Virus record (IMG/VR): IMGVR_UViG_3300017788_000209
Coordinates: 1 to 21,399 of that record
DNA length: 21,399 nt
From: a virus
Strand: one strand, 5' to 3'
The notes under the pieces were generated by a model, which had not been told where the DNA came from, ran no database searches, and saw only the letters and a list, made by a program, of their open reading frames with translations. Shown here piece by piece: positions 3,205 to 17,421 of the stretch. Every line of letters begins with the position of its first letter. Position 1 is the first letter of the stretch. Position numbers and translations under genes: made by a program.

Positions 3205-4343
3205 CATGGCCTGTGGTGATCAAAGCAGGTGCCAGCTTACATCAAACGCTGGCTACCGTAAGGTTTGACCGTTGGGGATCCCCCACCCAGCAAACTGTAT
3301 TTGTCTGCGATACATGGCCAGCTGGACTGACCTGGGCCAAAGACCAAGGGCATCGTCATGCATTGTTTGTCAACAGCGGTACAGTATTCACTAATTGGGA
3401 TGATTTCTGTCAGCTGGTCAACAACTACCCGCATCAAGGATTGATTGGACATCTTATCGCTCGTGCTGACACACCGCTGTACCTGGATGATCAGTGTTGG
3501 TTCATGGACCTTGATCTATTTGATGTTAGTGATTGGTCTGCCACGCATGTGTGTCATCCTCAAGCAGTGCGAAGTGAACAGAACTTGCATGACGACTACA
3601 CACCTTTGTGGGTACGGCCAGGCGCGGTATCTGCAACCGTCGAGATCAGTCATTTTACTCAAGTGTGGATCGCCCGACAACTTAACCTCAACCGGCTGAT
3701 CGTTAACTGGAACAATGCCTGTAGAGATATCAAACACTACATGTACGACAATCAGTTGCCCAAAAACATGTTCCGGGACTATGATGATCTGGCCACGAAT
3801 CAACTGTGGTTGTTTAACAATGAACCAATGGTTATGATCAATCAACCTTGTTTGGTTTCTCCAGGCTCAGGTCTGTCGTGGATATTAAATATTATCCAAC
3901 CTCGGACAGAACGCATGCACATGGTAGACATCAGTCGAGCACAAATAAACTTTTGCCAGCACCTGTGGCAACACTGGGATGGAACTGACTATGGCACAGT
4001 GGCCTGGAATTTTGTGCAAGAAAATAACATAATCCATTGCCAATTCGATCGAACTGATCTATCTGCCATGGATCGTGCCAGGCTGAAAGGCCGGACCAGA
4101 TTCATTGACTATGTCAACACGGTGTTCGCAAAACTGGTACCTGATACGTTTAGTGAGCAATGGCAACAGGCAAGACGTGACAAAACTGTTGTCTTCTATA
4201 ATGACAGTTTGCTTGATTGGGTGATCAACAATACTGCTGTGGACTATGACCATGTGTGGGAATCAAATGTCCTTGATTACAAGTGGACTCTGTTGCATTC
4301 TACACCTGAGCAATTTGAATTGTACAAGGCTCGACGCCGATGA
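3201..4343 (+). CDS. unknown protein; possible glycosyltransferase-like plus methyltransferase-like halves
   Basis: A 380-residue protein when started at the GTG at 3201, which overlaps the upstream stop codon as GTGA; the frame stays open further upstream inside the previous gene, but a coupled start is more plausible. The N-terminal half has alternating strands and a WFMDLDLFD segment whose D-x-D resembles the metal site of GT-A glycosyltransferases. The second half has CLVSPGSGLSW followed by MHMVDISRAQINFC and a WDG.DY segment, a pattern like the glycine loop and acidic strand end of class I SAM-dependent methyltransferases. Both readings are weak and rest on short motifs. ATGA overlap with the oxygenase gene downstream suggests the products act in one modification pathway. 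Confidence 0.7.
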   Translation: MTWPVVIKAGASLHQTLATVRFDRWGSPTQQTVFVCDTWPAGLTWAKDQGHRHALFVNSGTVFTNWDDFCQLVNNYPHQGLIGHLIARADTPLYLDDQCWFMDLDLFDVSDWSATHVCHPQAVRSEQNLHDDYTPLWVRPGAVSATVEISHFTQVWIARQLNLNRLIVNWNNACRDIKHYMYDNQLPKNMFRDYDDLATNQLWLFNNEPMVMINQPCLVSPGSGLSWILNIIQPRTERMHMVDISRAQINFCQHLWQHWDGTDYGTVAWNFVQENNIIHCQFDRTDLSAMDRARLKGRTRFIDYVNTVFAKLVPDTFSEQWQQARRDKTVVFYNDSLLDWVINNTAVDYDHVWESNVLDYKWTLLHSTPEQFELYKARRR

Positions 4344-5044
4344 AATATCAAGTCAGTCAAGCGATGTTCCGGCGCTTCAGGCAACATCAACCTGCTTTAC
4401 CTGCCTACAATGCGTCAGCTTCCTTTGGATGGATACAACACCAGTCTGGTTTGCCTTGGTTGAAGTTGGACATCAAAGTCCCTTACCAAATCATACTGTC
4501 AGAGATACCCAACATCCAATCACATCTGACAGCACATCGACAGGATCTCGACGAGCACAAAGGTTGGTACAGTTTCTGTTTGCACGGGAAAAGTTATGAC
4601 GCTACTAGAGAAGATGAGCACTACGATGACCTGCGCCCATACACATGGACCGCAGAAGCCGAACAATTCATGCCCAAAACTGTGGATTACTTCAAACAGC
4701 ATTGGCCCGGTGCCGAATATCAGCGTGTTAGAATCATGTTGTTGGAACCTGGAGGCTATATTACTGTACATCGGGACTGCACCCAGCCTCGGCTATATCC
4801 TATCAACATCGCTGTTACCCAGCCACAAGACTGTAGTTTTGTCATGGAAAACCACGGAGTGATACCTTTCGAACCGGGCGACTGCTATTGGCTAGATGTG
4901 AGCAATCGGCACGTGGTATTCAATCACAGTGATCAACCAAGATGGCATATCATTGTCCATCAGGACGTGGAACATCTGCAGTTTCAGAGTCTGGTTGCGA
5001 ATTCATACAAAAGACTATATAATAACAATCATGACAACGGCTAA
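4340..5044 (+). CDS. aspartyl/asparaginyl beta-hydroxylase-like 2-oxoglutarate/Fe(II) oxygenase
   Basis: A 234-residue protein whose C-terminal half matches the AspH-type double-stranded beta-helix. GGYITVHRD places the first iron ligand at H144 (D146 close by). RHVVFNHSDQPRWHIIVH places the second ligand at H191 and the 2-oxoglutarate-binding Arg at R201; the ten-residue His-to-Arg gap is that of AspH. FEPGDCYWLD before it is the usual strand and turn. Members hydroxylate Asp/Asn side chains or related substrates; the substrate here is unknown. The ATGA overlap with the gene before it implies translational coupling. The last 50 bases of the gene contain the promoter and start codon of uvsW, an overlap of 14 bases. 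The family call is good, the role open. Confidence 0.8.
   Translation: MKYQVSQAMFRRFRQHQPALPAYNASASFGWIQHQSGLPWLKLDIKVPYQIILSEIPNIQSHLTAHRQDLDEHKGWYSFCLHGKSYDATREDEHYDDLRPYTWTAEAEQFMPKTVDYFKQHWPGAEYQRVRIMLLEPGGYITVHRDCTQPRLYPINIAVTQPQDCSFVMENHGVIPFEPGDCYWLDVSNRHVVFNHSDQPRWHIIVHQDVEHLQFQSLVANSYKRLYNNNHDNG
4995..5023 (+). promoter_or_regulatory. sigma70-like promoter inside the oxygenase gene, driving uvsW
   Basis: -35 TTGCGA (4995-5000), 17-base spacer, perfect -10 TATAAT (5018-5023). The uvsW ATG lies at 5031, seven bases after the box, so the mRNA should have no leader. The promoter sits entirely within the C-terminal codons of the preceding gene. Confidence 0.72.
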
Positions 5045-6488
5045 AATTATAATCAAGGATGAGGTCAATATCAAGATCGAGGGTCTGGATCTGACCGCTC
5101 GCAAGAACCTGGTCAATGCATTCAAATATGAAAACCCTGCGGCAAGATACTTGCCAGCGGTGCGACTGGGGCGGTGGGATGGAAAGGTGGCCTACTTCCA
5201 ATTGGGCGGGTCAACTTACGTGAATCTACTGCCTGAGATCTTGCCCATGTTGGAACAGTGGGACTACGATGTTGAGCTGGATGATCAGCGCGACTATTCC
5301 ACCACCTTTGAGTTTCAGTTAGTAACTGAAACCAGCTTCTCTCATGTGGACTGGCCCAAGAGTCATCCAGCCGCAGGTGAGCCCATTATGTTGCGTGACT
5401 ATCAGGTGGAAATCATCAATAACTTCCTGACCAATCCGCAGTGCATACAGGAAGTGGCCACTGGTGCAGGTAAGACAATCATGACAGCCGCGCTCAGCAA
5501 CGCTGTGACTCCATATGGTCGTAGCATCGTGATAGTGCCCAATAAAAGTCTTGTTACACAGACAGAAGCCGACTACATCAACATGCAACAGGATGTGGGC
5601 GTGTTCTACGGCGATAGGAAAGAGTTTGGACGACAGCACACCATCTGCACCTGGCAGAGCCTGAACGTGTTGCTCAAAAATACCAAGAACTATGAAGCTG
5701 ATATCACCATACAAGAGTTCCTTGAAGACGTTGTATGTGTTATCGTGGATGAAGTACACATGGCCAAGGCCGACGCATTGAAAACCTTGCTCACAGGCGT
5801 GTTTGCTCGAGTGCCAATACGCTGGGGACTGACTGGTACCGTGCCCAAAGAAAAGTTTGAAAGCCAAGCCTTGTTGGTAGGCCTGGGTCCTGTGATCAGC
5901 CGTCTCGGTGCCAGCGAGCTACAGCAACAGGGTGTGCTGGCACAGTGTCACGTGAACATAGTACAGCTAACCGACCATGTGGAGTACAGCAACTATCAGA
6001 GCGAACTTAAATATCTATTAGAAACTCAGGGCCGGTTGGACTTTCTGTCCAGGCTAGCCGAGACCATCCGAGAATCGGGCAATACTTTGATCTTGGTTGA
6101 TCGCGTGGCAGCAGGTAAAGCTATAACTGAAAGGATCAAAGATGCGGTATTTGTCTCAGGTGCCACGAAGGCCACGGACCGTCAGGATGAATATGACGAC
6201 GTTGCGACTAGTGACAGCAAGGTTATTGTGGCGACTTACGGTGTGGCCGCTGTGGGTATTAACATCCCTAGGATTTTTAATCTGGTTCTTCTGGAGCCCG
6301 GAAAGAGCTTTGTCCGCGTTATACAATCAATTGGACGAGGCATTAGGCGAGCACAAGACAAAGACTTCGTTCAGATCTGGGACATAACCAGCACCTGCAA
6401 GTTCGCTAAACGTCATCTTACCAAGAGAAAGGCCTACTATAGAGAAGCAAATTATCCATTTAGCGTGGAAAAAGCCGATTGGCAATAA
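5031..6488 (+). CDS. uvsW: UvsW-like superfamily 2 DNA/RNA helicase
   Basis: A 485-residue SF2 helicase. A small N-terminal domain (about 1-95; FKYENPAARYLPAVRLGRWDGK) is the DNA-binding domain typical of phage UvsW. Then follow LRDYQ (121-125), Walker A/motif I ATGAGKT (143-149), motif II VDEVH (239-243), motif III LTGT (267-270), and in the second RecA lobe LILVDR (353-358), TYGVAAVGINIP (402-413) and motif VI QSIGRGIRR (432-440). In T4, UvsW unwinds R-loops and branched recombination intermediates and helps change origin-dependent replication into recombination-dependent replication. The frame is open back to 4929, but ATG 5031 is chosen because it gives the family's normal N-terminus and has a promoter just before it. 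All catalytic motifs are intact. Confidence 0.95.
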   Translation: MTTAKIIIKDEVNIKIEGLDLTARKNLVNAFKYENPAARYLPAVRLGRWDGKVAYFQLGGSTYVNLLPEILPMLEQWDYDVELDDQRDYSTTFEFQLVTETSFSHVDWPKSHPAAGEPIMLRDYQVEIINNFLTNPQCIQEVATGAGKTIMTAALSNAVTPYGRSIVIVPNKSLVTQTEADYINMQQDVGVFYGDRKEFGRQHTICTWQSLNVLLKNTKNYEADITIQEFLEDVVCVIVDEVHMAKADALKTLLTGVFARVPIRWGLTGTVPKEKFESQALLVGLGPVISRLGASELQQQGVLAQCHVNIVQLTDHVEYSNYQSELKYLLETQGRLDFLSRLAETIRESGNTLILVDRVAAGKAITERIKDAVFVSGATKATDRQDEYDDVATSDSKVIVATYGVAAVGINIPRIFNLVLLEPGKSFVRVIQSIGRGIRRAQDKDFVQIWDITSTCKFAKRHLTKRKAYYREANYPFSVEKADWQ

Positions 6489-7578: not shown

Positions 7579-8038
7579 TAAACTGAACATCAACAATGAG
7601 ATGGCACAACTGGATCGCAAGAATCGAGGGTTTTATGATGAGCTCACAGATGAAGAACGTAAAAAATTCAGCATCTATCTCATGTTGCGTTGGAGTAGTA
7701 GTGTGCAGGCATCGTCTGCTGTGCAGGCCTACTATGTCATGAGCTGTAATGAAAATCTCAACAAAAACTTTTTTGACATATCCAAACATCCAAAACTGCA
7801 ATGGTTGTGCGCTACCACAGTCAGTCCAGGCATAGGCACACACAAACACCAGTGGATTCCGAACAAAAAGAAGAACTCTGCCATAGAAAACAAAACAGTT
7901 CGTGCTCTACGGCAAGTATTTCCTGTGCTCAAACGAGAAGAGCTAGAGATGCTGGCCATTATCAATAGCAAAGACGAAATCAAACAACTGCTGAAAGCAC
8001 ATGGTTGGGACGACAAGCGAATCAAATCTGATCTATAA
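7571..8038 (+). CDS. possible clamp-loader small subunit (T4 gp62-like)
   Basis: A 155-residue protein. The central part (FSIYLMLRWSSSV, AYYVMSCNENLNK.FFDIS.HPKLQWL, then SPGIGTHKHQWI) follows the same order as T4 gp62, where a helix ending in a Ser-containing turn, a mid helix with Asn-Leu, and a basic K..KW stretch pack against gp44. The match is remembered and loose, without hallmark catalytic residues, since gp62 has none. If right, it would work with gp44 to load the gp45 sliding clamp; neither partner is in this window. Its position between UvsW and primase/helicase supports a replication role. It overlaps the previous gene by 8 and the next by up to 38 bases. Confidence 0.62.
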   Translation: MSDKLNINNEMAQLDRKNRGFYDELTDEERKKFSIYLMLRWSSSVQASSAVQAYYVMSCNENLNKNFFDISKHPKLQWLCATTVSPGIGTHKHQWIPNKKKNSAIENKTVRALRQVFPVLKREELEMLAIINSKDEIKQLLKAHGWDDKRIKSDL

Positions 8039-8711
8039 ATGCCGCTATTGCGAAAAAGAATTCCGCAAGGAGAGCACACTAGCGGTGCACCAGTGCGAGA
8101 TCAAGCGCCGTTGGCAACAGGAAAACGAAACAGGAGTGCAATGGGGACTGCGTGCTTACCTGCGCTTTTACGAAATCACACAAGGCAGCGCCAGGCTGAA
8201 AAACTATGAAGACTTCGTGACCAGTCCTTATTATCTGGCATTTGTTCGATATGGACGTTATTGCGTATCTATACACAACATAAATTTCATATCCTACACC
8301 GACTGGCTGCTCAAGAACAACAAAAAGCTGGATCACTGGTGCCGGGACAGTTTGTACGAAGAATGGTTGAATGAATATCTCCGCCGAGAGAACGTGCAAG
8401 ATGCCCTCGAGCGAGGCCTTAAAGAAATGCAAGGCTATGCCGACAGCCATCCGGATCTCAAGAATGGATTCCGCGACTACTTTCGCTATGGCAATCCCAA
8501 TCGTATCTGCCATCACATTACCACCGGTCGCATCAGTCCTTGGATCGTGTTCAACTGTGACAGTGGCATTGCTTTTCTCGAGGGTCTGGACGAGACGCTG
8601 TTGGCCATCGTTCTTCCTTGGATAGATCCTGATCACTGGCATCGTAAACTGCAGGACTATCTCGCTGATGCCGAGTGGTGCAAGCATGTGTTGGCAGAGG
8701 CTGGCTTATGA
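8001..8711 (+). CDS. zinc-finger-bearing phage protein, function unknown
   Basis: A 236-residue protein with an N-terminal C2HC zinc-finger-like motif: C14-x2-C17, then H30 and C32, within YKCRYCEKEF and LAVHQC. A charged KRRWQQENETG follows. The rest is helical (LYEEWLNEYLRRENVQDALERGLKEMQ) with RDYFRYGN and a conserved-looking DPDHWHRKLQDYLADAEWCK tail. The finger suggests nucleic-acid binding. ATG 8001 is the only ATG that keeps the finger, though it lies 38 bases inside the previous gene; a non-ATG start nearer 8030 cannot be excluded. It is coupled to the next gene by ATGA. I think this is a conserved hypothetical of T4-like environmental phages. Confidence 0.75.
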   Translation: MVGTTSESNLIYKCRYCEKEFRKESTLAVHQCEIKRRWQQENETGVQWGLRAYLRFYEITQGSARLKNYEDFVTSPYYLAFVRYGRYCVSIHNINFISYTDWLLKNNKKLDHWCRDSLYEEWLNEYLRRENVQDALERGLKEMQGYADSHPDLKNGFRDYFRYGNPNRICHHITTGRISPWIVFNCDSGIAFLEGLDETLLAIVLPWIDPDHWHRKLQDYLADAEWCKHVLAEAGL

Positions 8712-8947
8712 GCATGATCCGATTAAAATACGGTGGGGAGAACACAGTGGTCAAGCCTGTACAAGCGGCCCTACGACTCAGTGACGAACTGCGCGAACAG
8801 TATGGACTGGTCCGTGGCAGAGACTACAGCTGGCATTTCAGTTCCGCTGACCGAGAATTACATGTGTTGTTCCACGGCACCGCGGCAGAACAGGTGTCCA
8901 CCATCGTATCGATGAAATATCTAGGAAAGGATCTAGATGAAATTTAA
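8708..8947 (+). CDS. small unknown protein upstream of the mini-polymerase
   Basis: A 79-residue protein started at ATG 8708 (ATGA overlap with the previous stop codon); the frame is open 33 bases further upstream but the coupled start is favoured. It has an alternating pattern ending in TIVSMKYLGKDLDEI and no recognisable motif. It overlaps the following gene by 11 bases, so translation of the two is probably linked; a partner role for the mini Pol III alpha-like protein is possible but only positional inference. Confidence 0.65.
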   Translation: MSMIRLKYGGENTVVKPVQAALRLSDELREQYGLVRGRDYSWHFSSADRELHVLFHGTAAEQVSTIVSMKYLGKDLDEI

Positions 8948-9527
8948 CTCAGACATTGATATTGACTTCGCTAACAGAGAACAGATACTTGGCCACATAA
9001 TTCATGTGCCAGCCAGCATGCTCCGTGACGGAAAGTTTGTAGCGCACAACACCGGTATCTATGCCACAGCAGTTCCACAAGATCCGTTTACTGGACTTTG
9101 CAGTATAGATTATGAACAAGCGGAACAGCGTGGATACGTAAAACTGGATCTGCTCAATGTAAGTCTGTATCGGCAAGTTCGTGACGAAGCGCATCTACTG
9201 GAGCTGATGCAGCATGCTCCAGACTGGCAGCGTTTCAATATCGATCGGGAGTTTTTTGAACAGCTGATGCATGTGAACAGCCACTGGGATCTCTTGAAAA
9301 AGATGCCTGAGCCAGTGGATACTGTGGCTCGTTTGGCCATGTTCTTGGCCGTAATACGCCCGGCAAAGAGATATCTAGTAGGACGCACGTGGAAAGAAGT
9401 AGCGGATGAAGTGTGGACCAGGCCAGTGGATGATGCATACTTTTTCAAGAAAAGCCATTCGCTGGCCTATGCGCATCTAGTGGTCGTGAATATGAATCTA
9501 ATCAGTCTTGCGGACCAAAACAATTGA
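8937..9527 (+). CDS. miniature DNA polymerase III alpha-like protein (C-family catalytic core only)
   Basis: A 196-residue protein that aligns by eye, in order, with landmarks of bacterial Pol III alpha. SDIDIDFANREQIL (5-18) matches the PDFDVDF..RDQVI motif with catalytic Asp pair D8/D10. AHNTGIYATAVP (36-47) matches KHAGGVVIAP. RGYVKLDLLNV (66-75) matches LVKFDFLGL with the third catalytic Asp, D71. HVNSHWDLLKKM (112-123) matches the LESRGMKDLIKRL region, MFLAVIRPAK (135-144) matches ALVALFRPGP, and FKKSHSLAYAHL (170-181) matches NKSHSAAYALV. Missing are the PHP domain, much of palm and fingers including the YQEQ segment, the clamp-binding and OB regions; E. coli alpha has about 1160 residues. 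The start has an AAGGA ribosome site. Whether it polymerises, regulates or has another job is unknown. Confidence 0.82.
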   Translation: MKFNSDIDIDFANREQILGHIIHVPASMLRDGKFVAHNTGIYATAVPQDPFTGLCSIDYEQAEQRGYVKLDLLNVSLYRQVRDEAHLLELMQHAPDWQRFNIDREFFEQLMHVNSHWDLLKKMPEPVDTVARLAMFLAVIRPAKRYLVGRTWKEVADEVWTRPVDDAYFFKKSHSLAYAHLVVVNMNLISLADQNN

Positions 9528-9875
9528 TCTGCGTTTGGTTTTCTTGGCTGCGATTTCTTTCAGACTCACATACGGCCCAAACGGGATTTCAACATCTCTG
9601 CTGTTCATGGTCTTGAGGCAATAACGGAACTGTTTCCAGTCGTGACGTAAAAACACATTGATTGGAATGGTGCGATTGCTTTCCCACCACCATATTTCGC
9701 CTAGGTTTAAGAACGTGTGTTTTTCTGCTTCGGTGCGCAACATCGCATAGTCGTAGATGCAGGTCAGCATATCATCCACGTTTTGCACGATACCTATATA
9801 TTCGTTGCCGCCGTAGACTACATAACTTAGGAATGGATATTTTTTACAAAAGTCTTTTAAGATATCTTCTGACAC
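9498..9875 (-). CDS. lone minus-strand protein of unknown function
   Basis: A 125-residue protein on the minus strand, beginning at a GTG (the only usual start codon before an in-frame stop). It has GEIWWWESNRTIPINVFL in the middle and a basic tail AAKKTKRRSIVLVRKTD. No known domain. No better plus-strand frame fills 9528-9958, which supports it. Its 3' end overlaps that of the mini-polymerase by 30 bases, tail to tail, and it diverges from the primase gene. A GGTAAATA box on its own strand (plus-strand positions 9900-9907) about 25 bases upstream of the GTG could be a late-type promoter, weakly supported. Confidence 0.68.
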   Translation of the reverse strand: MSEDILKDFCKKYPFLSYVVYGGNEYIGIVQNVDDMLTCIYDYAMLRTEAEKHTFLNLGEIWWWESNRTIPINVFLRHDWKQFRYCLKTMNSRDVEIPFGPYVSLKEIAAKKTKRRSIVLVRKTD

Positions 9876-9922: not shown

Positions 9923-9951
9923 TTGCTTTTATTCGGATGCCGTGTTACACT
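9923..9951 (+). promoter_or_regulatory. sigma70-like promoter giving a leaderless primase transcript
   Basis: -35 TTGCTT (9923-9928), 17-base spacer, -10 TACACT (9946-9951). The primase ATG is at 9959, seven intervening bases after the -10 box. This is the same geometry as at 1164, 2354 and 4995. Confidence 0.65.
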
Positions 9952-9958
9952 GCTGTTT

Positions 9959-11032
9959 ATGAATGATCTCATCCAACAGGAACTGATATCGCTGCTGCCG
10001 GCACGTAGAAAACGTACCGGAGACTGGATCAGTTTCAATGCTGTGTGCTGCCCCCACAATGGAGAAACACCGGACACCCGCGGGCGTGGAGGTGTGCGTC
10101 CAAACAGTGATGGCAGCGTGAGCTATCACTGTTTCAACTGCGGGTTCAAAACAGGATTCTATCCGGGACGACCACTCAGCTACAAGTTCCGCCGGCTGCT
10201 GGGTTGGTTTGGCGCAGATGAAAACCAACTGCAGAGGCTCACGCTCGAAGCTCTGCGTATTAGAGAAATCACGCCGATAGAATCGCATGTGGCACCCCCA
10301 CCTGTGGAGATTTCGTTCAAAGCACGCGGACTTCCTGACAACAGCTCATCCATGAGAGAAAAATGTTTCCAACTGGCGCATGATGCAGTTGGTATAGAAC
10401 AATTGCAGGACTCACAACTGATACAGGCCGCGGACTATCTCAACAGCCGTCGTATGGGCCTGGACAGCTATGATTTTTATCTCACGCCAGATACCAGTTA
10501 CAACCTGCATCGCCGTATCATCATTCCTTTTTATTGGCAAGGCGGATTGATAGGTTACACTGCGCGAGCAGTTGATCCTGGTATACGACCAAAATATCAC
10601 AGCAGTTATGAACCCAACTATGTGTTTAATCTGGACAGACAGCAGCCAGATGCCAAGTTCGTGATAGTTACAGAAGGTCCTTTTGATGCCATGGGCATAG
10701 ACGGTGTGGCAGTACTGAGCAACAGCATCAGCGAAGTGCAAGCAGACATCATCGATTCTCTGGGCCGCGAAGTGATAGTGGTACCGGATTTTGATGCAGA
10801 GATGGACGAACGAACAGGTAAAAAGAAATGGTCTGGACGAGCACTAGTTGATGCTGCGCTGGAGTATGGGTGGAGCGTGAGTTTCCCAGAGTGGTACGAG
10901 CGGTGCAAGGATACGGCAGACGCTGTGGCTCGTTATGGCCCGCTGTTTACCCTGGCCACTATCTTGCGCGGCAAAGAGACGAGCGCATTAAAGATAGAAC
11001 TCAAGAGAAAAACAATATATAATAAACTATGA
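9959..11032 (+). CDS. 61: DNA primase, gp61/DnaG-type with zinc-binding and Toprim domains
   Basis: A 357-residue primase. The N-terminal zinc-binding domain has C31-x-H33 (CCPHNGE) paired with C58-x2-C61 (HCFNCGF). The Toprim domain begins at FVIVTEGPFDA with the catalytic Glu E239 and continues to VVPDFDAE with D277 and D279, the metal-binding DxD. NLHRRIIIPFYW and GYTARA in between are typical of the polymerase core. Length agrees with T4 gp61 (342 residues). It makes RNA primers on the lagging strand together with the helicase encoded next. ATG 9959 is preferred over a TTG at 9923, because 9923 is part of the promoter. The stop codon overlaps the helicase start (ATGA), so primase and helicase are made together. 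Confidence 0.93.
   Translation: MNDLIQQELISLLPARRKRTGDWISFNAVCCPHNGETPDTRGRGGVRPNSDGSVSYHCFNCGFKTGFYPGRPLSYKFRRLLGWFGADENQLQRLTLEALRIREITPIESHVAPPPVEISFKARGLPDNSSSMREKCFQLAHDAVGIEQLQDSQLIQAADYLNSRRMGLDSYDFYLTPDTSYNLHRRIIIPFYWQGGLIGYTARAVDPGIRPKYHSSYEPNYVFNLDRQQPDAKFVIVTEGPFDAMGIDGVAVLSNSISEVQADIIDSLGREVIVVPDFDAEMDERTGKKKWSGRALVDAALEYGWSVSFPEWYERCKDTADAVARYGPLFTLATILRGKETSALKIELKRKTIYNKL
11016..11023 (+). promoter_or_regulatory. weak -10-like box before the helicase gene
   Basis: TATATAAT at 11016-11023, just before ATG 11029, repeats the -10-to-start spacing seen elsewhere (TATATA ends eight positions before the A of the start codon). No convincing -35 box is seen 16-18 bases upstream, so independent transcription of the helicase is only a possibility. 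Confidence 0.3.
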
Positions 11033-12435
11033 CCAAAGAATACAACGTCAGCATACAAAAACTGTTCCTAGAGATGATGTTGCACGATGCACAGAACTTT
11101 GTGCGAGTGCAGAATATCTACAACGAAGAAAATTTCGATCGCAGCCTGAGATCTGTCGCCAAGTTTATCAAAGAGCACAGCAACAATCACAGGACCTTGC
11201 CTACCCTGGACCAGATACAGGCAGTGACAGGCCTAGAGCTCAAAGCACTGCCAGACATCACTGAAGGGCATCATGAATGGTTCCTAGGCGAGTTTGAGAG
11301 TTTTACCAAGCAAAAAGAACTGGAACGAGCCATCCTCAAAGCAGCGGACATGCTGGAGAAAGGCGAGTTTGATCCAGTAGAAAAACTGATCAAGGACGCT
11401 GTGCAGATCTCGCTTACCAAGGATCTTGGCACAGACTTCTGGTTGGATCCTGAGGGCATGCTGACCAAGTATTTTGATGCAGGTGGACAAGTGTCAACAG
11501 GTTGGCCACAGTTGGACAAGCTATTATACGGCGGGTTTTCACGTGGCGAGCTCAACATCTTTGCGGGCGGATCTGGATCAGGCAAAAGTCTCGTGATGAT
11601 GAACATAGCACTCAACTGGGTGCAGGCAGGCTTGCATGGTGTGTACGTCACGTTGGAACTGAGCGAAGAGCTCACGGGACTGCGAACCACGGCCATGCTA
11701 ACGAACATGAGCACCAAGGACATCCGCCGGGACAAACAGACTGCTGCGCTCAAGGTCAAGATGGTGGGCAAAAAGGCTGGCAGCTATCAGGTCAAAGCCT
11801 TGCCCGCGCAGAGCAACATCAATGACATCCGTGCGTTCTTGAAAGAATATCAGATCCAGACCGGCCGCCGGGTGGATTTTATCATGATCGATTATCTGGA
11901 CCTGCTCATGCCCGTGAGTGCCAAGGTCAGTCCCAATGACTTGTTTGTAAAAGACAAATACGTTTCAGAAGAACTGCGCAATCTCAGCAAAGAGCTGGGG
12001 GTGCTCATGGTCACTGCCAGTCAGCTGAATCGTGGTGCAGTGGACGAAATCGAGTTTGATCACAGCCATATTTCCGGTGGTATCTCGAAGATTAACACAG
12101 CAGATAATGTGTTTGGTATTTTCACTTCAAGAGCCATGCGTGAGCGTGGACGTTATCAAATCCAGTGCATGAAAAGCCGTAGTTCAACTGGTGTAGGCAA
12201 CAAGATCGATCTTGAATACAACGTGGAGACCATGCGCATCACGGATCCGGGCGAAGATGCTAATATACAGCAACCACATGCCAGCAGCATCATGAACCAG
12301 ATCAAGGCCAGATCCACAGTGGAACGCACAGACCCGGACACCGGAGAAGTCAGCGAATCCGCGCCGATCAAGACAGAAATGGGCAGTAACAAGCTCAAGA
12401 GCATGCTAGCGAACATAAAGGCGCAGGCGCGGTGA
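11029..12435 (+). CDS. 41: replicative DnaB-like helicase, T4 gp41-type
   Basis: A 468-residue RecA-fold hexameric helicase. The N-terminal part (1-130) is helical, as in the DnaB/gp41 N-domain that contacts primase. The C-domain begins near TGWPQLDKLLYGGFSRGELNIFAG, a DnaB signature. Walker A is GGSGSGKS (180-187), LELSEE (209-214) carries the catalytic-Glu region, Walker B is FIMIDYLDL (284-292), SQLNRG (331-336) is motif H3/H4-like, and MKSRSSTG (381-388) is near the arginine finger region. T4 gp41 has 475 residues, so this is full length. It unwinds the fork 5' to 3' and forms the primosome with the primase coupled upstream by ATGA. It ends the early/middle replication block. Confidence 0.95.
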   Translation: MTKEYNVSIQKLFLEMMLHDAQNFVRVQNIYNEENFDRSLRSVAKFIKEHSNNHRTLPTLDQIQAVTGLELKALPDITEGHHEWFLGEFESFTKQKELERAILKAADMLEKGEFDPVEKLIKDAVQISLTKDLGTDFWLDPEGMLTKYFDAGGQVSTGWPQLDKLLYGGFSRGELNIFAGGSGSGKSLVMMNIALNWVQAGLHGVYVTLELSEELTGLRTTAMLTNMSTKDIRRDKQTAALKVKMVGKKAGSYQVKALPAQSNINDIRAFLKEYQIQTGRRVDFIMIDYLDLLMPVSAKVSPNDLFVKDKYVSEELRNLSKELGVLMVTASQLNRGAVDEIEFDHSHISGGISKINTADNVFGIFTSRAMRERGRYQIQCMKSRSSTGVGNKIDLEYNVETMRITDPGEDANIQQPHASSIMNQIKARSTVERTDPDTGEVSESAPIKTEMGSNKLKSMLANIKAQAR

Positions 12436-12496: not shown

Positions 12497-12760
12497 TTGC
12501 TGAAAAAAACCCGTAGCATATTGGAAGAGCTGGATAGCCATTTTCTTGAAAAAGACAAGGAAAACGTGCTGGAAAGTCGTGCTGATCATGTGATACAGGG
12601 TGCTATCAACTTGATTAACACCATACGTGAAAATTACAGCAGTGAGGCAGCAGCCGAACTTGAACGGCGCCTGCTGAACAGTATAAGGGCACAGGATCCT
12701 AATAAATTCGTAAGAGGCATTAGGAGAGTGCGCAGTGAAACTACAACATCTAACAAGTGA
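12497..12760 (+). CDS. small helical protein at the start of the late operon
   Basis: An 87-residue, mostly helical protein started at TTG 12497, with GGAG seven bases upstream (12486-12489). It contains ILEELDSHF, ENVLESRADHVIQGAINLINTI and AAELERRLLNSIRAQDPNKFVRGIRRV, the last a basic helix. No known domain. Similar short proteins seem to occur in environmental T4-like phages without function. Its 3' end overlaps the long structural gene by 26 bases. Its placement under the late-type box suggests a late role, perhaps in assembly. Confidence 0.72.
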   Translation: MLKKTRSILEELDSHFLEKDKENVLESRADHVIQGAINLINTIRENYSSEAAAELERRLLNSIRAQDPNKFVRGIRRVRSETTTSNK

Positions 12761-15521
12761 CGCCGAGCTGGACCTGGCGTCACACCCGCTGTATCAAGAA
12801 GCAGTGGCCTTGGTACGTGAGCTAAACAAGCTCACGGAAGGCAAAGCTCTCGGACGCGACGACATCCACAATCTGTTCAAAGGCGCAGAAGAAGCCATGA
12901 CCACAGGTGGTCAGAACCGCACGGTATTGGGACGAGCAGGCGAGCTGGCTGGCGCCTTGGGCAACAAGATAAAATCTCTAGGCCAAGCCCTGCAGAATAC
13001 CACTGTGATCAAAGGCGTTGATGCCAAGTTTGATGAACTCAAACAGATGGTGGGACAGAGCATGGGCAAGAGTCCAGACGGCTCTCGTGTGCTACGGGCG
13101 CTGGACACCTACAAACAAACAGTCCAACGTTATCCTACTACCAGTAATTTTTTCTGGGGAGTGGCAGGTGTGCTCACAGGTCTGTTGACAAGTGGCGCAG
13201 CGCCAGTGCTGGCTTTAGGTGCGATAAAAATGATCGACGGACTCATGCAAGGCGAGCAGTTTAGCACTGCCGCAGGGCGTGCCACTCGTCCAGTAGGTGC
13301 TGCATTAGGAGCCAAGGCCTTGGCAGGCGCAGCAGATGCAGCCGCACAAGGAATCGATACCGCAGTAGACACTGTGCAGAACATCGACCCAAACAAAATA
13401 AATCCCTTCAAGCCAGACGTGAACCCACCTGGCCCTGACAACGTGAACCCACCTGGCCCCGACAACGTGAACCCACCTGGCCCCGACAATGTTGTGCCTC
13501 CGGGAGTGGAAACACAAACTTACGTGGCCAAACAAGGGGACACCCTGACCGGCATCAGCGCCAAGTTCAAGGTCAATCCAGATGAACTGGCACAGTTAAA
13601 TCCTGGCAAGTTTAGCCCTGACGGTAATCCAAATCTCTTGCAACCGGGCGAACAAATCATACTGCCAAAAAATCCCACCGGTCCTTACACAGGTCCGTAC
13701 AGTGGCGACAATGCCATGACGGCGCAAAATATACAAAACAAAATGGACGCTGGTCAATATGGATCTGATGGCGGCATGGCATCTAAACGTATCGCAGCAG
13801 ATACAGCAGCTCAACCGGCACCTTCTGCACAATCCTCGGCACCTTCTGCACCCTCTGCACAATCCCCAGTACCAGCACCATCCCCAGCACCATCCCAATC
13901 GAATCCGTTTGCTGCCAGAACTATACGTACAGAATCTATCAAGATCAAAGCAGGGCGTGATATCCTAGAAGGATTTGATATTATTACTGCACCTGTTGCA
14001 CAATTGGTTGATCGTCAAGCCACAGTGCGCAAGTGGGCACTAAACGAAAGCCTAAGCCGTGGTGGTCGTAGCATTCAATTGAACGAAGCTGGAGTTCGCA
14101 CAGTGTTTGCCAACCTAGAGCGATTGCATGAATTCGTCATTGATGAAAGACGTCGCAACAACATCGGTCGCGAACGCAGCCGGGCCATGGGCCAGGCAGC
14201 AGGACGCAAAGGGCAAACAGCCCAACAATTTGCACAATCCAATCCGGCTGCGGCAGCAGACATCGCTGCCTCTACTCCGGAACCTGACAGTTACGACCCC
14301 GGTACGAGACGTACCAATGCAGAAAGAGGGAGAACCCAGGCTGATCTAGATCGTGACCAACAAGGCGGCACAGTGCGCAGCCGGCCTGCCAATGCCAACG
14401 ATCCTGCGGCCATGGCCAAGAATGCGAGAACATCAGCTGCCAATACCAGCACCACAGCTGGACCACTGGGCGGGTTGCCTGGCGGAGCAGCACCTGCTGG
14501 TAATACCATGCCTTACTTGGCAGCTAATCCAGAAGGTAAATTCAAGACCACCGGACAAGGTCCTCTAGGCGGCTCAGTCGCTCGCGGTGTTGAAACAGGT
14601 CTCCGTAGATTCAGCAATTGGGCCGGAGACACCTGGCGCGAAGCCACTACTAAGGTAACACTCAACGGCCTGTTGCGTCACTGGAAAGATGCCAAAGAAC
14701 CCAAGGACAGCGACGAAGTGGCTGCTTTTTTAGTTGGCAGGAAAGTTCCGCCAGAGATAGTGAAACAACTGTATCAACAGTTGGGATTCCCTGCACCCAA
14801 CTTGGATGCACCGGCTTCACAAACAGCTGGTTCCGCTGCTGCATCACCTGAAATGACTGATGACCAGGTCATTGCTGCTGCCAATCAAGCCCTTGAGAGA
14901 GGTACAGCAATAACTCCTGAACAAAAAGCGAGACTCGATGCTATCAGACAACGCCAAGGTTTATCCGCGGTAGATATTCCAGTGGCCAGTGCAGACACTA
15001 CAGCACCAGTGGGTACCACCCGAGGTACAAGAACCGCGGCCGCAGGATCCTCTGCAGCACCAGCTGCATCTGTGACCATGGCAGGAGACAACCAACAGTC
15101 ACAGGCCACTGCCATGATACTACCGCAGATAGCCAGAATGACCGGCACTATGTATGCTGACGATCTCATCACTATCATTGACACTGCTCTCAGCGTGTTG
15201 TCACGCAGTGCTCCTACTGCCTATAGAGAAAAGCTGATGCAACTGCGAGGCTCGGCCTCCGGCAAACAAAGAGAACGTGCCGACGACATAATCAAGCGTA
15301 CCAAATCTAAGAAGAAAAAGGCAGCGCCGGCACCGGCCACGTCTACTTTCACTCCACCAAGCGGAACCCCGGTTCCAGACTGGATGTCATCGGGTATGCC
15401 AGAACCGGTCAGAGCCGAAAGCCAGACCAGAGTATATGGCGGAAGATACATACGTGAAAGTGCCGACGCCAGGCTGATTAGAGAGTTTGAAAATTTTGTT
15501 ATAGGATCATTGAAGTCATGA
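12735..15521 (+). CDS. large LysM-containing probable virion protein
   Basis: A 928-residue protein started at GTG 12735. Residues 1-135 are helical. A hydrophobic stretch (about 139-170, FFWGVAGVLTGLL...LALGAIKMIDGL) could enter a membrane. Three NPPGPDNV octapeptides (230-253) lead into a LysM domain (261-311: YVAKQGDTLTGISAKF, PDELAQLNP, LLQPGEQIILP), a peptidoglycan-binding fold. A Pro/Ala/Ser linker (about 355-392) follows, then ordered-looking modules (LLEGFDIITAPVAQLVDRQATVRKW; LSRGGRSIQLNEAGVRTVF; TLNGLLRHWKDAKEPKDSDEVAAFLVGRKVPPEIV) split by low-complexity linkers. No lytic catalytic domain was recognised. A tail or internal virion protein that meets the cell wall or inner membrane on entry is the best inference. 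It is coupled to the next gene by ATGA. Confidence 0.82.
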   Translation: MKLQHLTSDAELDLASHPLYQEAVALVRELNKLTEGKALGRDDIHNLFKGAEEAMTTGGQNRTVLGRAGELAGALGNKIKSLGQALQNTTVIKGVDAKFDELKQMVGQSMGKSPDGSRVLRALDTYKQTVQRYPTTSNFFWGVAGVLTGLLTSGAAPVLALGAIKMIDGLMQGEQFSTAAGRATRPVGAALGAKALAGAADAAAQGIDTAVDTVQNIDPNKINPFKPDVNPPGPDNVNPPGPDNVNPPGPDNVVPPGVETQTYVAKQGDTLTGISAKFKVNPDELAQLNPGKFSPDGNPNLLQPGEQIILPKNPTGPYTGPYSGDNAMTAQNIQNKMDAGQYGSDGGMASKRIAADTAAQPAPSAQSSAPSAPSAQSPVPAPSPAPSQSNPFAARTIRTESIKIKAGRDILEGFDIITAPVAQLVDRQATVRKWALNESLSRGGRSIQLNEAGVRTVFANLERLHEFVIDERRRNNIGRERSRAMGQAAGRKGQTAQQFAQSNPAAAADIAASTPEPDSYDPGTRRTNAERGRTQADLDRDQQGGTVRSRPANANDPAAMAKNARTSAANTSTTAGPLGGLPGGAAPAGNTMPYLAANPEGKFKTTGQGPLGGSVARGVETGLRRFSNWAGDTWREATTKVTLNGLLRHWKDAKEPKDSDEVAAFLVGRKVPPEIVKQLYQQLGFPAPNLDAPASQTAGSAAASPEMTDDQVIAAANQALERGTAITPEQKARLDAIRQRQGLSAVDIPVASADTTAPVGTTRGTRTAAAGSSAAPAASVTMAGDNQQSQATAMILPQIARMTGTMYADDLITIIDTALSVLSRSAPTAYREKLMQLRGSASGKQRERADDIIKRTKSKKKKAAPAPATSTFTPPSGTPVPDWMSSGMPEPVRAESQTRVYGGRYIRESADARLIREFENFVIGSLKS
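13419..13490 (+). repeat. three tandem copies of a 24-base coding repeat
   Basis: Copies at 13419-13442, 13443-13466 and 13467-13490 begin GTGAACCCACCTGGCCC and differ by single bases. Each encodes VNPPGPDN, a Pro/Gly-rich flexible spacer just before the LysM domain. A degenerate fourth unit (VVPPGV) follows. In-frame gain or loss of units by slippage would alter spacer length without breaking the gene. Confidence 0.93.
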
Positions 15522-16291
15522 AATTGCACGAAGGTGGTAACGCCATCCCCAATAGCATTCCTGTAGCCAAAAAAGACGTCGCTAAAGTAGTAGGCGAGGT
15601 GCGGTCTGCGCTGCCACCTGCCTTGGTAGGTCGCATGCAGATAGACATAGGCAGTGCTGGATACAAAGTAGAAAGCGGAGACATCGATGTCATGGTAGAA
15701 GCCGATGACGTGGTAGCTCTGTTTCAAACACAAAATGAAAAAGAACCGGTCAAAGCAGGAAAAAAAGCCCTTGAGAACTTTTTCCGTGCCAAAGGTTTTG
15801 AAGGGTGCGTGACCAAAGGCAACAACGTGCATGTGGGAGTTCCATATAAAGATGCTCTAGCACAGGTAGACGTCATGGTGATAGGTGATGCTGCCTTGGT
15901 AGCTCCTTACCATCAGCACGGGCCACGCGGTAGCTATGATGATCCTGACTTTGTTGGCAATGCTATATTCATACTCATGAACAGCATAGGCAAGCCATTG
16001 GGTCTGAAGTTTGATGCATTTGGTGCCAAGCTCATGCGCAGGGAAGACAACGCTGTGGTAGCCAGAGATCGCGACAGCGTGGCTAAGATCTTGCTTAACC
16101 CACGAGCTACCGGCGACGACCTCAACAGCGTAAAATCCATCATGCGAGCATTGGCAAACGATCCCATGCGAGACGAAAAGCTGGCACAGGCTCGCGATGA
16201 TGAAGCCAAGGGTTTAATCATGTTGCCTAAAAAGCTAGAAGAAGGATCTCCCAGCTGGTTCCGTGCCATGCAATCCCTACTGGTACGCTAA
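15518..16291 (+). CDS. nucleotidyltransferase-fold protein (pol-beta superfamily), first of two
   Basis: A 257-residue protein with the pol-beta nucleotidyltransferase signature. IDIGSAGYK (42-50) is the hG[GS] turn, ESGDIDVMV (52-60) supplies metal ligands D55 and D57, and AQVDVMVIGD (115-124) supplies the third Asp D118. Spacing fits the superfamily, so the active site looks intact. The C-terminal half (GNAIFILMNSIGKPLGLKFDAFGAKLM and a helical tail) is not recognised. Such enzymes move a nucleotide onto RNA, protein or a small molecule; the acceptor here is unknown. It is joined to the structural gene before it by ATGA and to the next nucleotidyltransferase-like gene by TAATG, in an operon without gaps. 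Confidence 0.8.
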   Translation: MKLHEGGNAIPNSIPVAKKDVAKVVGEVRSALPPALVGRMQIDIGSAGYKVESGDIDVMVEADDVVALFQTQNEKEPVKAGKKALENFFRAKGFEGCVTKGNNVHVGVPYKDALAQVDVMVIGDAALVAPYHQHGPRGSYDDPDFVGNAIFILMNSIGKPLGLKFDAFGAKLMRREDNAVVARDRDSVAKILLNPRATGDDLNSVKSIMRALANDPMRDEKLAQARDDEAKGLIMLPKKLEEGSPSWFRAMQSLLVR

Positions 16292-17421
16292 TGAAATCCA
16301 GAGATTTTGTTATCGAAAAGCGTCGCAAAAAACCTGCACGATTTGCCTACGGAGGATATTGGTATCCTGGGTTCGCTCACTCGGGAGACAGCGCAGGCGA
16401 TGGCGGCGGTGGCGAAAGTGTACGCGAAGGAGGGTGGGATACTACTGCCACACAAAACACAGTGATCACTCCTGCTGTGGTCAAAGCATCTCTTAACGTG
16501 GTACAACAGTTTGTTACAGATTTCAATGCTTGGCTAGCACCACAAGGCCAAGGTCCGGTACAAATGGGTCGTCCTACAGGCAGCAGTGCATATCATGCAG
16601 CAGATGCTAAAGATGATCCAGAAAAAGTCTATGGTGATGTGGACCTGCAGATGATAGCACCTCCTGTTGAAGGATTAACGTACGGTCAGTTCACTAGTTT
16701 TTGGAATAGATTGGCCGACGAGTTTGTGAAAGAAAACAATCCTGCCTATGTGCTGCAAACAGAAAGCAAGCCAGGACATCCTATTTTAGCCATTGGTAAC
16801 AACGCCTACGTACAAGTTGATTTCATGTGGCACGAGCCCGGCATGAGCAAGTGGGGCGCTACCAGAGTCACGCCCGAACGCGGTACCAAAGGTTTACTGT
16901 TTGGCAACATGTGGAGTGTGTTTGGTGAGTTGTTAAACATGAGCATACAACATGCAGGTGTGCAGCTCAAAGTGATTGACAATGAACGTGTGCCATTCAG
17001 CAAACAAAAAGACACCCAGATCGTCACAGTTACAACCAATCCAGAAACATTCATACTGGACACATTTAGATATCTGGCACAACAGCAGGGCATAGAAAAG
17101 CCGCGCATGGTGCCTGCACTCAAAACCTATGGTGGTGTGCGCATAGAGCAAGTGAGCATTGAAAACATGGTAAAAGGAGTAAAAGCATTTGCCGCCAGTG
17201 CAGAAGCCAATGGCATGTTTGGCCGCGGTGATCTAAAACCGTTTGCCAGTGCAGATGATTTCTTAAATAAATTTTTACAACGCTATGAAGAAAAAGCCAT
17301 GATAGATGTACAGGGCAAAAAACGTGACAAAGCACAAACTCCGGCTGCTATGGCTCGTGCAGAAAATGACAAACAAAAAATACTACAAGGCCTGGAAAAG
17401 GTGCGAGGATATTTCCGATGA
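16291..17421 (+). CDS. nucleotidyltransferase-fold protein (pol-beta superfamily), second of two
   Basis: A 376-residue protein with a second, different nucleotidyltransferase site. MGRPTGSSAYHA (92-103) is the G-S turn, VYGDVDLQMIAP (113-124) gives D116 and D118, and AYVQVDFMWH (172-181) gives the third Asp D177. An N-terminal Gly-rich low-complexity stretch (about 31-49) precedes it, and a basic helical tail (QGKKRDKAQT and beyond) ends it. It is longer than its neighbour and shares only the motif plan, so the pair looks like ancient paralogues or convergent recruitment rather than a recent duplication. It shares one base with the upstream stop codon and an ATGA with the ligase-like gene downstream, so the three proteins should be made in linked amounts. 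Confidence 0.8.
   Translation: MKSRDFVIEKRRKKPARFAYGGYWYPGFAHSGDSAGDGGGGESVREGGWDTTATQNTVITPAVVKASLNVVQQFVTDFNAWLAPQGQGPVQMGRPTGSSAYHAADAKDDPEKVYGDVDLQMIAPPVEGLTYGQFTSFWNRLADEFVKENNPAYVLQTESKPGHPILAIGNNAYVQVDFMWHEPGMSKWGATRVTPERGTKGLLFGNMWSVFGELLNMSIQHAGVQLKVIDNERVPFSKQKDTQIVTVTTNPETFILDTFRYLAQQQGIEKPRMVPALKTYGGVRIEQVSIENMVKGVKAFAASAEANGMFGRGDLKPFASADDFLNKFLQRYEEKAMIDVQGKKRDKAQTPAAMARAENDKQKILQGLEKVRGYFR

Follow-up and report, generated by a model that had tools for sequence, protein, structure and literature searches.

How can a protein of 196 residues carry the active-site landmarks of a bacterial replicase, and is it an enzyme, part of one, a decoy or a remnant? The question is raised by an open reading frame (ORF) in a 21,399-nucleotide stretch of viral DNA (IMG/VR record IMGVR_UViG_3300017788_000209, positions 1 to 21,399; hereafter the window), which the original prediction had described as a miniature of the alpha subunit of DNA polymerase III (Pol III alpha). 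We find that the gene almost certainly encodes the C-terminal part of a minimal Pol III core divided between two genes. It is probably the C-terminal unit (C-unit) of a polymerase known from jumbo phages akin to Atu_ph07, PA5oct, RaK2 and 121Q, the split minimal Pol III alpha, whose two halves would reassemble and assist a family B polymerase.

Predicted catalytic residues of the C-unit

We re-derived the length and coordinates of the ORF and re-translated it. Its start overlaps the preceding ORF (8675-8947) by 11 bases, and a AGGAAAGGA stretch lies upstream of its ATG. As predicted, six landmarks occur within the 196 residues in the order of Pol III alpha; the HxxG segment was matched by eye and the others by alignment. 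The gene and its landmarks are as follows:

8937..9527, plus strand: C-unit (Mg2+/template-binding part) of the split minimal polymerase, 196 residues (ORF translation, phrog_11778 match, model, conservation)
8952..8966, plus strand: D6-I-D8-I-D10 motif, D6 and D8 equivalent to E. coli D401 and D403 (profile alignment, conservation)
9045..9056, plus strand: H37-x-x-G40 segment, equivalent to E. coli H511...G514 (by eye, no aligner; both residues in 95/95 proteins)
9141..9149, plus strand: K69-L-D71, equivalent to E. coli K553-F-D555, with the third catalytic Asp (hhalign, conservation)
9357..9368, plus strand: R141-P142-x-K144, equivalent to the E. coli FR639P640GPL region (alignments, conservation)
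9450..9470, plus strand: K172-S-H174-S-L-A-Y178, what is left of the fingers helix, with H174 equivalent to the E. coli steric gate H760 (alignment, conservation)

The E. coli numbering follows dnaE of MG1655 (PDFDVDF at 400, KHAGGV at 510, KFDFLG at 553, FRPGPL at 638 and the His of KSHS at 760). In a profile of twelve C-units D6 falls on D401, and D-x-D-x-D at 6-10 corresponds to D401/D403/D405. The program hhalign pairs K69-x-D71 with K553/D555 and R141-P142 with R639-P640, and a C-unit profile alignment pairs K172-S-H174 with K758-S-H760, in agreement with the LFRPG-like and KSHSAAYA-like segments noted earlier. D401, D403 and D555 are the active-site Asp residues of Pol III alpha (PMC3919608, PMC8485763; published papers are cited throughout from excerpts of their text). 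The original prediction had named D8, D10 and D71 as the catalytic residues. All three Asp of the triad are indeed on the chain, but two of those named (D8 and D10) were shifted by one because D6 is equivalent to D401 and D8 to D403; by alignment, the triad is D6, D8 and D71. D10 is instead equivalent to D405, an extra Asp of the DnaE groups that is Asn in PolC (PMC3919608). It is kept in 94 of 95 C-units, including that of the window, and replaced by Ser in one, which by this criterion places the family on the DnaE branch and not the PolC branch. H760 has been proposed from structural modelling as a steric gate that excludes ribonucleotides, and in the model it contacts the incoming deoxynucleoside triphosphate (dNTP) (PMC8485763).

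The residues D6, D8, D71, K69, H37, G40, R141, P142, K144, H174 and Y178 are invariant in all 95 distinct proteins, that of the window among them. These counts are of deduplicated sequences: 114 ORFs gave 95 proteins for the C-unit, and 73 gave 54 for its partner described below. D6 and D8 were partly selected for in IMG/VR, where the search patterns included MKFNSDID, and the patterns used for genome contigs included the KSH segment (H174); D71, K69, H37 and H174 lie outside the IMG/VR patterns, and the named phages were gathered by tblastn. A stop codon closes the ORF in each of 86 C-unit loci, 186-207 residues from the start of the match. Between the C-units of the window and of locus L001, the ratio of nonsynonymous to synonymous substitution (dN/dS) is 0.139/1.91 (NG86; dS near saturation). 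A ratio well below 1 together with the invariant residues indicates strong purifying selection and not decay. The gene is real and well conserved, and its catalytic Asp residues have been kept under selection, as had been argued from the retained triad.

The C-family profile match that the original prediction implied was found only in part. PHROG 11778, annotated 'DNA polymerase', matched residues 3-190 with an expectation value (E) of 1.7e-55, and the large family PHROG 405 matched the KSHS end (1.6e-5), while Pfam and NCBIfam gave no match to the single C-unit sequence at E ≤ 10. A phmmer search of the C-unit against the PDB returned gamma/tau clamp-loader chains only (E 0.5-1.3), which we treated as chance.

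The partner half and a probable shared palm

The GxGRGS nucleotide-binding segment is absent from the 196-residue chain. In relatives it is encoded elsewhere: the Pfam profile DNA_pol3_alpha (PF07733) matched above its cut-off in 9 of 10 records bearing the C-unit, in an ORF covering about profile positions 16-98, and the one record without such a match is a 139-kb contig (G003). This N-terminal unit (N-unit; PHROG family 11127) has about 170 residues. GRGS is present in all 54 distinct N-units (motif GRGSS), and 47 of the 54 stop two residues past the EF of EFLK, which is equivalent to E. coli N393. The profile matches are weakened as evidence by the control genomes, 12 of 14 of which gave PF07733 matches at E ≤ 10 (10 above the cut-off, and two archaea among the 12); all nine N-unit matches relied on exceed the cut-off. 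A close large relative of the window, a 355-kb contig (loci L002 and L110) with a 65-66% identical C-unit, has an N-unit, and from such relatives we infer a partner for the phage studied here. The stripped core of the original prediction therefore survives as a stripped C-family relative, but not as a self-contained one, since the GRGS half is a separate gene in relatives.

Models of both units were made with AlphaFold2. The C-unit model has a predicted local distance difference test score (pLDDT) of 91.9 and a predicted template modelling score (pTM) of 0.80; the N-unit model is mostly helical (pLDDT 88.1, pTM 0.67). The twelve entries most similar to the C-unit model are all bacterial replicases (Z 5.5-8.8; next entry 2.8), as are the fifteen most similar to the N-unit model (Z 6.2-10.4; next entry 2.5), so the predicted folds bear out the proposed kinship. 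On E. coli alpha (2hnh), the C-unit model aligns with a Z of 8.5 over 181 residues across E. coli 398-784 (3.9 Å), and 181-190 of its residues align across this range in 2hnh, 2hqa, 5fku and 5fkw. Residues 61-169 of the N-unit model align with 2hnh across E. coli 272-393, likewise with a Z of 8.5. The two units jointly span one palm with a four-residue gap between their ranges, and these abutting ranges together with the drop to the next entries make the case that the halves tile a single palm. The C-unit and N-unit are halves of a minimal Pol III core split at about E. coli residues 393/398. The residue ranges were obtained with VIA-align, which works solely on matches already made by Foldseek; Foldseek alone is weak here (best E 0.019 for the C-unit model and 0.073 for the N-unit model, with no match at 0.001). 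Three entries titled only 'DNA polymerase' (9qpc, 9qrl and 9qrn) were taken as PolC because their residue ranges match that of 3f2b.

Much of the bacterial enzyme has no counterpart in the pair. D8 and D71 are 63 residues apart in the C-unit and their E. coli equivalents 152; for D71 and H174 the figures are 103 and 205. This shortening indicates that the thumb and most of the fingers are absent. In the model the ORF ends with the helix that bears KSHS, leaving no room for clamp- or tau-binding parts.

A tblastn search with the C-unit retrieved 68 phage records at E ≤ 10, and 63 of them cover at least 80% of the query. Carriers include Atu_ph07, Phosso, PA5oct, 121Q/PBECO4, RaK2, GAP32, CBB and Munch, with hosts ranging from Alpha- to Gammaproteobacteria; from IMG/VR we used 80 of the 237 matching stretches. 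Weak matches at the end of the tblastn list (E 2-5), to tail proteins of Streptomyces phages Itza and Celia and of Pseudomonas phage Nican01, were discarded as chance.

The two halves occur together. In records of at least 249 kb, a limit chosen after the results were known, the N-unit was found in 8/8 that bear the C-unit and the C-unit in 7/7 that bear the N-unit, so that all 15 have both. For named phages, 59 of the 60 C-unit-bearing accessions listed are also found among the 60 of 84 N-unit records that were listed. The exception is PP728206, an 'UNVERIFIED' 109-kb record; the Klebsiella count is 10 and all ten are listed, so PP728206 is not among the remaining records. The genes lie 15-224 kb apart in the 15 named jumbo phages measured. 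A family B polymerase (PF00136), which had been expected in such phages, is present in 9 of 10 relatives. The family B exonuclease domain PF03104 was found in 12/12 records, which is weaker proof alone, as it also matches in the B. subtilis control. B. subtilis is not known to have a family B polymerase.

Family B genes also showed some irregularities. One 525-kb viral contig has two family B exonuclease domains (G009:C1:18899-19528 and 510384-510956) in ORFs of 907 and 917 residues on opposite strands near its two ends; duplication, a repeat or an assembly effect would each account for them. The family B polymerase was matched in two open frames in both Atu_ph07 (NC_042013, 212336-214615; 418 and 578 residues) and Cassandra (OR805292, 87976-92605; 825 and 379 residues), and the family B replicase may also be split in these phages.

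The C-unit was also retrieved from 13 contigs of 12 GTDB genomes (L190-L202), 12 titled as metagenome-assembled genomes and one as 'uncultured bacterium', with titles that include Natrialbaceae archaeon and Candidatus Pelagibacter; the match in L202 extends over 20 residues only. These are probably phage contigs binned with cells.

Possible roles of the pair

In the mechanism that we favour, the C-unit would supply the metal-binding residues D6, D8 and D71, and also K69, the loop of HxxG and the helix of the fingers that bears the steric-gate His. The second protein, of about 170 residues and encoded by a distant gene in relatives, would supply the GRGSS nucleotide-binding part. The two units would fold jointly into a single pol-beta-like palm that lacks the thumb, most of the fingers, and the PHP, OB and clamp-binding parts. 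This small enzyme of low processivity would add dNTPs distributively, as a helper of the phage's family B (gp43-type) polymerase during repair, the filling of gaps or some special replication step. The halves likely reassemble into an active enzyme. Their homology, tiling, co-occurrence and conservation, and the family B polymerase of their relatives, are computed observations; physical association, catalysis, a preference for dNTPs and the biological role of the pair are what we infer from these.

Several observations weigh against this mechanism. We searched the 21-kb window record for an N-unit and found none, and no ORF joining both halves occurs among ORFs of at least 40 residues in 185 sequences. 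Below 249 kb, the C-unit is present in only 3 of 10 N-unit-bearing contigs, being absent also from contigs of 231 and 230 kb, and the N-unit in only 4 of 15 C-unit-bearing contigs (G003 is counted both here and among the ten records above). Distance matrices of the two units correlate with an r of 0.919 over 23 genomes, a value reached in 0 of 2000 permutations, and such a correlation could also be expected from shared descent. At the sequence level, hhalign of C-units against E. coli alpha gave a probability of 23.8% (E 8e-4 for that single template), and profile comparison linked the C-unit to PDB chains only weakly (E 1.8). According to the tool's own warning, any Z of less than 8 (about 13 for helical folds) may reflect a common arrangement, and residues 1-5 of the C-unit model, which adjoin D6, have a pLDDT below 50. 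Loss of the thumb and most of the fingers could in itself abolish DNA synthesis. Finally, a literature search, judged by titles and with most subscription journals outside its scope, found no experimental study of the split pair.

The same loss of thumb and fingers, and the family B polymerase or exonuclease domain in relatives, would also suit a reassembled pair that is a nucleotidyltransferase and not a template-directed polymerase, engaged in terminal transfer or in nucleotidylation of a protein or of a DNA or RNA end. We consider this unlikely, as the KSH-Y helix with its dNTP-contacting His is invariant (H174 and Y178 in 95/95) and the C-unit is located among replication genes. The original prediction had also raised a decoy or accessory role, in which a non-catalytic protein would bind the host replisome or clamp loader, and a small piece of host-type replicase in phages with their own replicase would fit such a role. 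This seems very improbable: the catalytic Asp residues, K69 and the steric gate are invariant under strong purifying selection, an N half with GRGS is retained alongside, and the ORF is too short for a C-terminal clamp- or tau-binding region.

About as improbable is a stand-alone polymerase of 196 residues, for although the three Asp and the steric gate are all on the C-unit chain, the GRGS half of the palm is on a separate, co-occurring gene. Capture and decay of a dnaE gene would explain why so much of Pol III alpha is lacking, but this reading is contradicted by conservation, namely by the stop-terminated ORFs, the low dN/dS and the residues invariant in phages of such diverse proteobacterial hosts, and we give it almost no credence.

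Gene neighbourhood and known systems

The C-unit gene lies in a replication block that had been recognised as T4-like, and the UvsW-type helicase, primase and DnaB/gp41 helicase around it agree with that description. The relevant genes of the window are:

4929..6488, plus strand: UvsW-type DNA helicase (phrog_16; PHROG match), marking the upstream limit of the conserved block
8001..8711, plus strand: syntenic upstream gene (phrog_11058), beside the C-unit in 6/6 named jumbo phages compared
9498..9875, minus strand: lone minus-strand gene (phrog_11637), convergent with the C-unit and overlapping its end
9923..11032, plus strand: phage primase (phrog_47; PHROG match)
11029..12435, plus strand: DnaB/gp41-like replicative helicase (profile matches)

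The order UvsW-type helicase, genes at 6479 and 8001, C-unit, convergent gene, primase and DnaB/gp41 helicase is identical in all six named jumbo phages; the other genes that the block has in the window recur in fewer of the six. Of 107 C-unit loci that offered 450 bases or more of adjoining sequence, counted without deduplication, 99 have a relative of phrog_11637 next to the C-unit, and in 69 of the 99 it overlaps the C-unit ORF. Among 92 distinct relatives, the WWWESNR, GP and KR positions of this gene's product are conserved. In PBECO4, GAP32 and Vibrio 2.275.O a DnaQ-type exonuclease is encoded near the C-unit. We rejected it as a constant third partner: only 5 of 12 records had an RNase_T match above the cut-off, and none of the 6 IMG/VR records had one at E ≤ 0.01.

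Other window genes were noted in passing. Upstream, an ORF at 4340-5044 (plus strand) that adjoins the replication block has an Aspartyl/asparaginyl beta-hydroxylase domain (PF05118, 5.5e-13). Downstream, a 928-residue ORF at 12735-15521 (plus strand) repeats the unit PPGPDNVN and weakly resembles an endolysin over one stretch (phrog_380, 3.4e-5). The adjoining ORFs at 15518-16291 and 16291-17421 (plus strand) contain GS...DxD segments (IGSAGYKVESGDIDVMV; GRPTGSSAYH...YGDVDLQM) that by eye resemble pol-beta-type nucleotidyltransferases, with no Pfam or PHROG match at 0.01.

An active pair would amount to a tiny replicase core made of two pieces and would help to show what the C-family manages without a thumb and most of the fingers. 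It would also bear on whether cores of this kind came before the large enzymes of bacteria, as suggested in PMC7824862. A bolder form of the proposal is possible, though we advance it with considerable doubt: the proteins of about 170 and 196 residues may be a thumbless template-directed polymerase and a model of the ancestral C-family core beside a family B replicase, with phrog_11637 as a third subunit or regulator. The exact cut, the partner family and the invariant residues make the question testable in E. coli jumbo phages such as Sharanji, whose record lists K-12 MG1655 as host. The findings also bear on the naming of C-unit genes in databases, where many of the listed records have 'hypothetical protein' or 'putative membrane protein'.

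Compared with bacterial DnaE (E. coli 2hnh; Taq 2hpi/3e0d), the pair shares the palm fold, the equivalents of D401/D403/D405/D555 and K553, and the HxxG, RP and KSH motifs. It differs in dividing the palm between two proteins and in lacking PHP, thumb, most fingers, OB, and clamp- and tau-binding parts. An ORF of a 150,743-base viral contig (G004; L096:1411-3120, contiguous) resembles the split pair in being C-family (by Pfam: PF07733, nearly full-length, and PF17657), in lacking a PHP match and in its viral setting. It differs in being one DnaE-like chain of 570 residues with a finger domain, and it occurs in addition to the pair. With its family B polymerase this phage possibly has three polymerases, a chimeric contig being the alternative.

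Parts of the system had been seen in individual phages. In 2017 the authors of CBB reported a truncated Pol III alpha of 172 residues (CBB_328) and an epsilon subunit (PMC5259590). By length and name CBB_328 is the N-unit partner, a 172-residue match being named 'DNA polymerase III alpha' in KU574722; it is thus the other half, and the C-unit of KU574722 is annotated 'putative membrane protein'. Alpha and epsilon subunits were likewise predicted in Atu_ph07 (PMC6102473), and a 'DNA polymerase III' ORF was listed for Callisto in 2024 (PMC11079468).

The closest description concerns group 2.2 jumbo phages, which were reported to combine a family B polymerase with a minimal Pol III alpha specific to phages (Iyer et al. 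2021, Viruses 13:63, PMC7824862). There, the minimal Pol III alpha is split into two distant genes for NTP-binding and Mg2+/template-binding parts, and the split enzyme was suggested to share in strand synthesis or repair. We equate the family of the window with that system because the text of the report fits and Atu_ph07 is named in it. Going by that text, the split minimal Pol III was thus already described in 2021, the window is a further member, and we see no essential difference between the two beyond the window being a 21-kb fragment without the N-unit. To that description we add the exact cut (E. coli 393/398), the corrected triad, the invariance of the steric gate, the co-occurrence counts and the conserved convergent neighbour.
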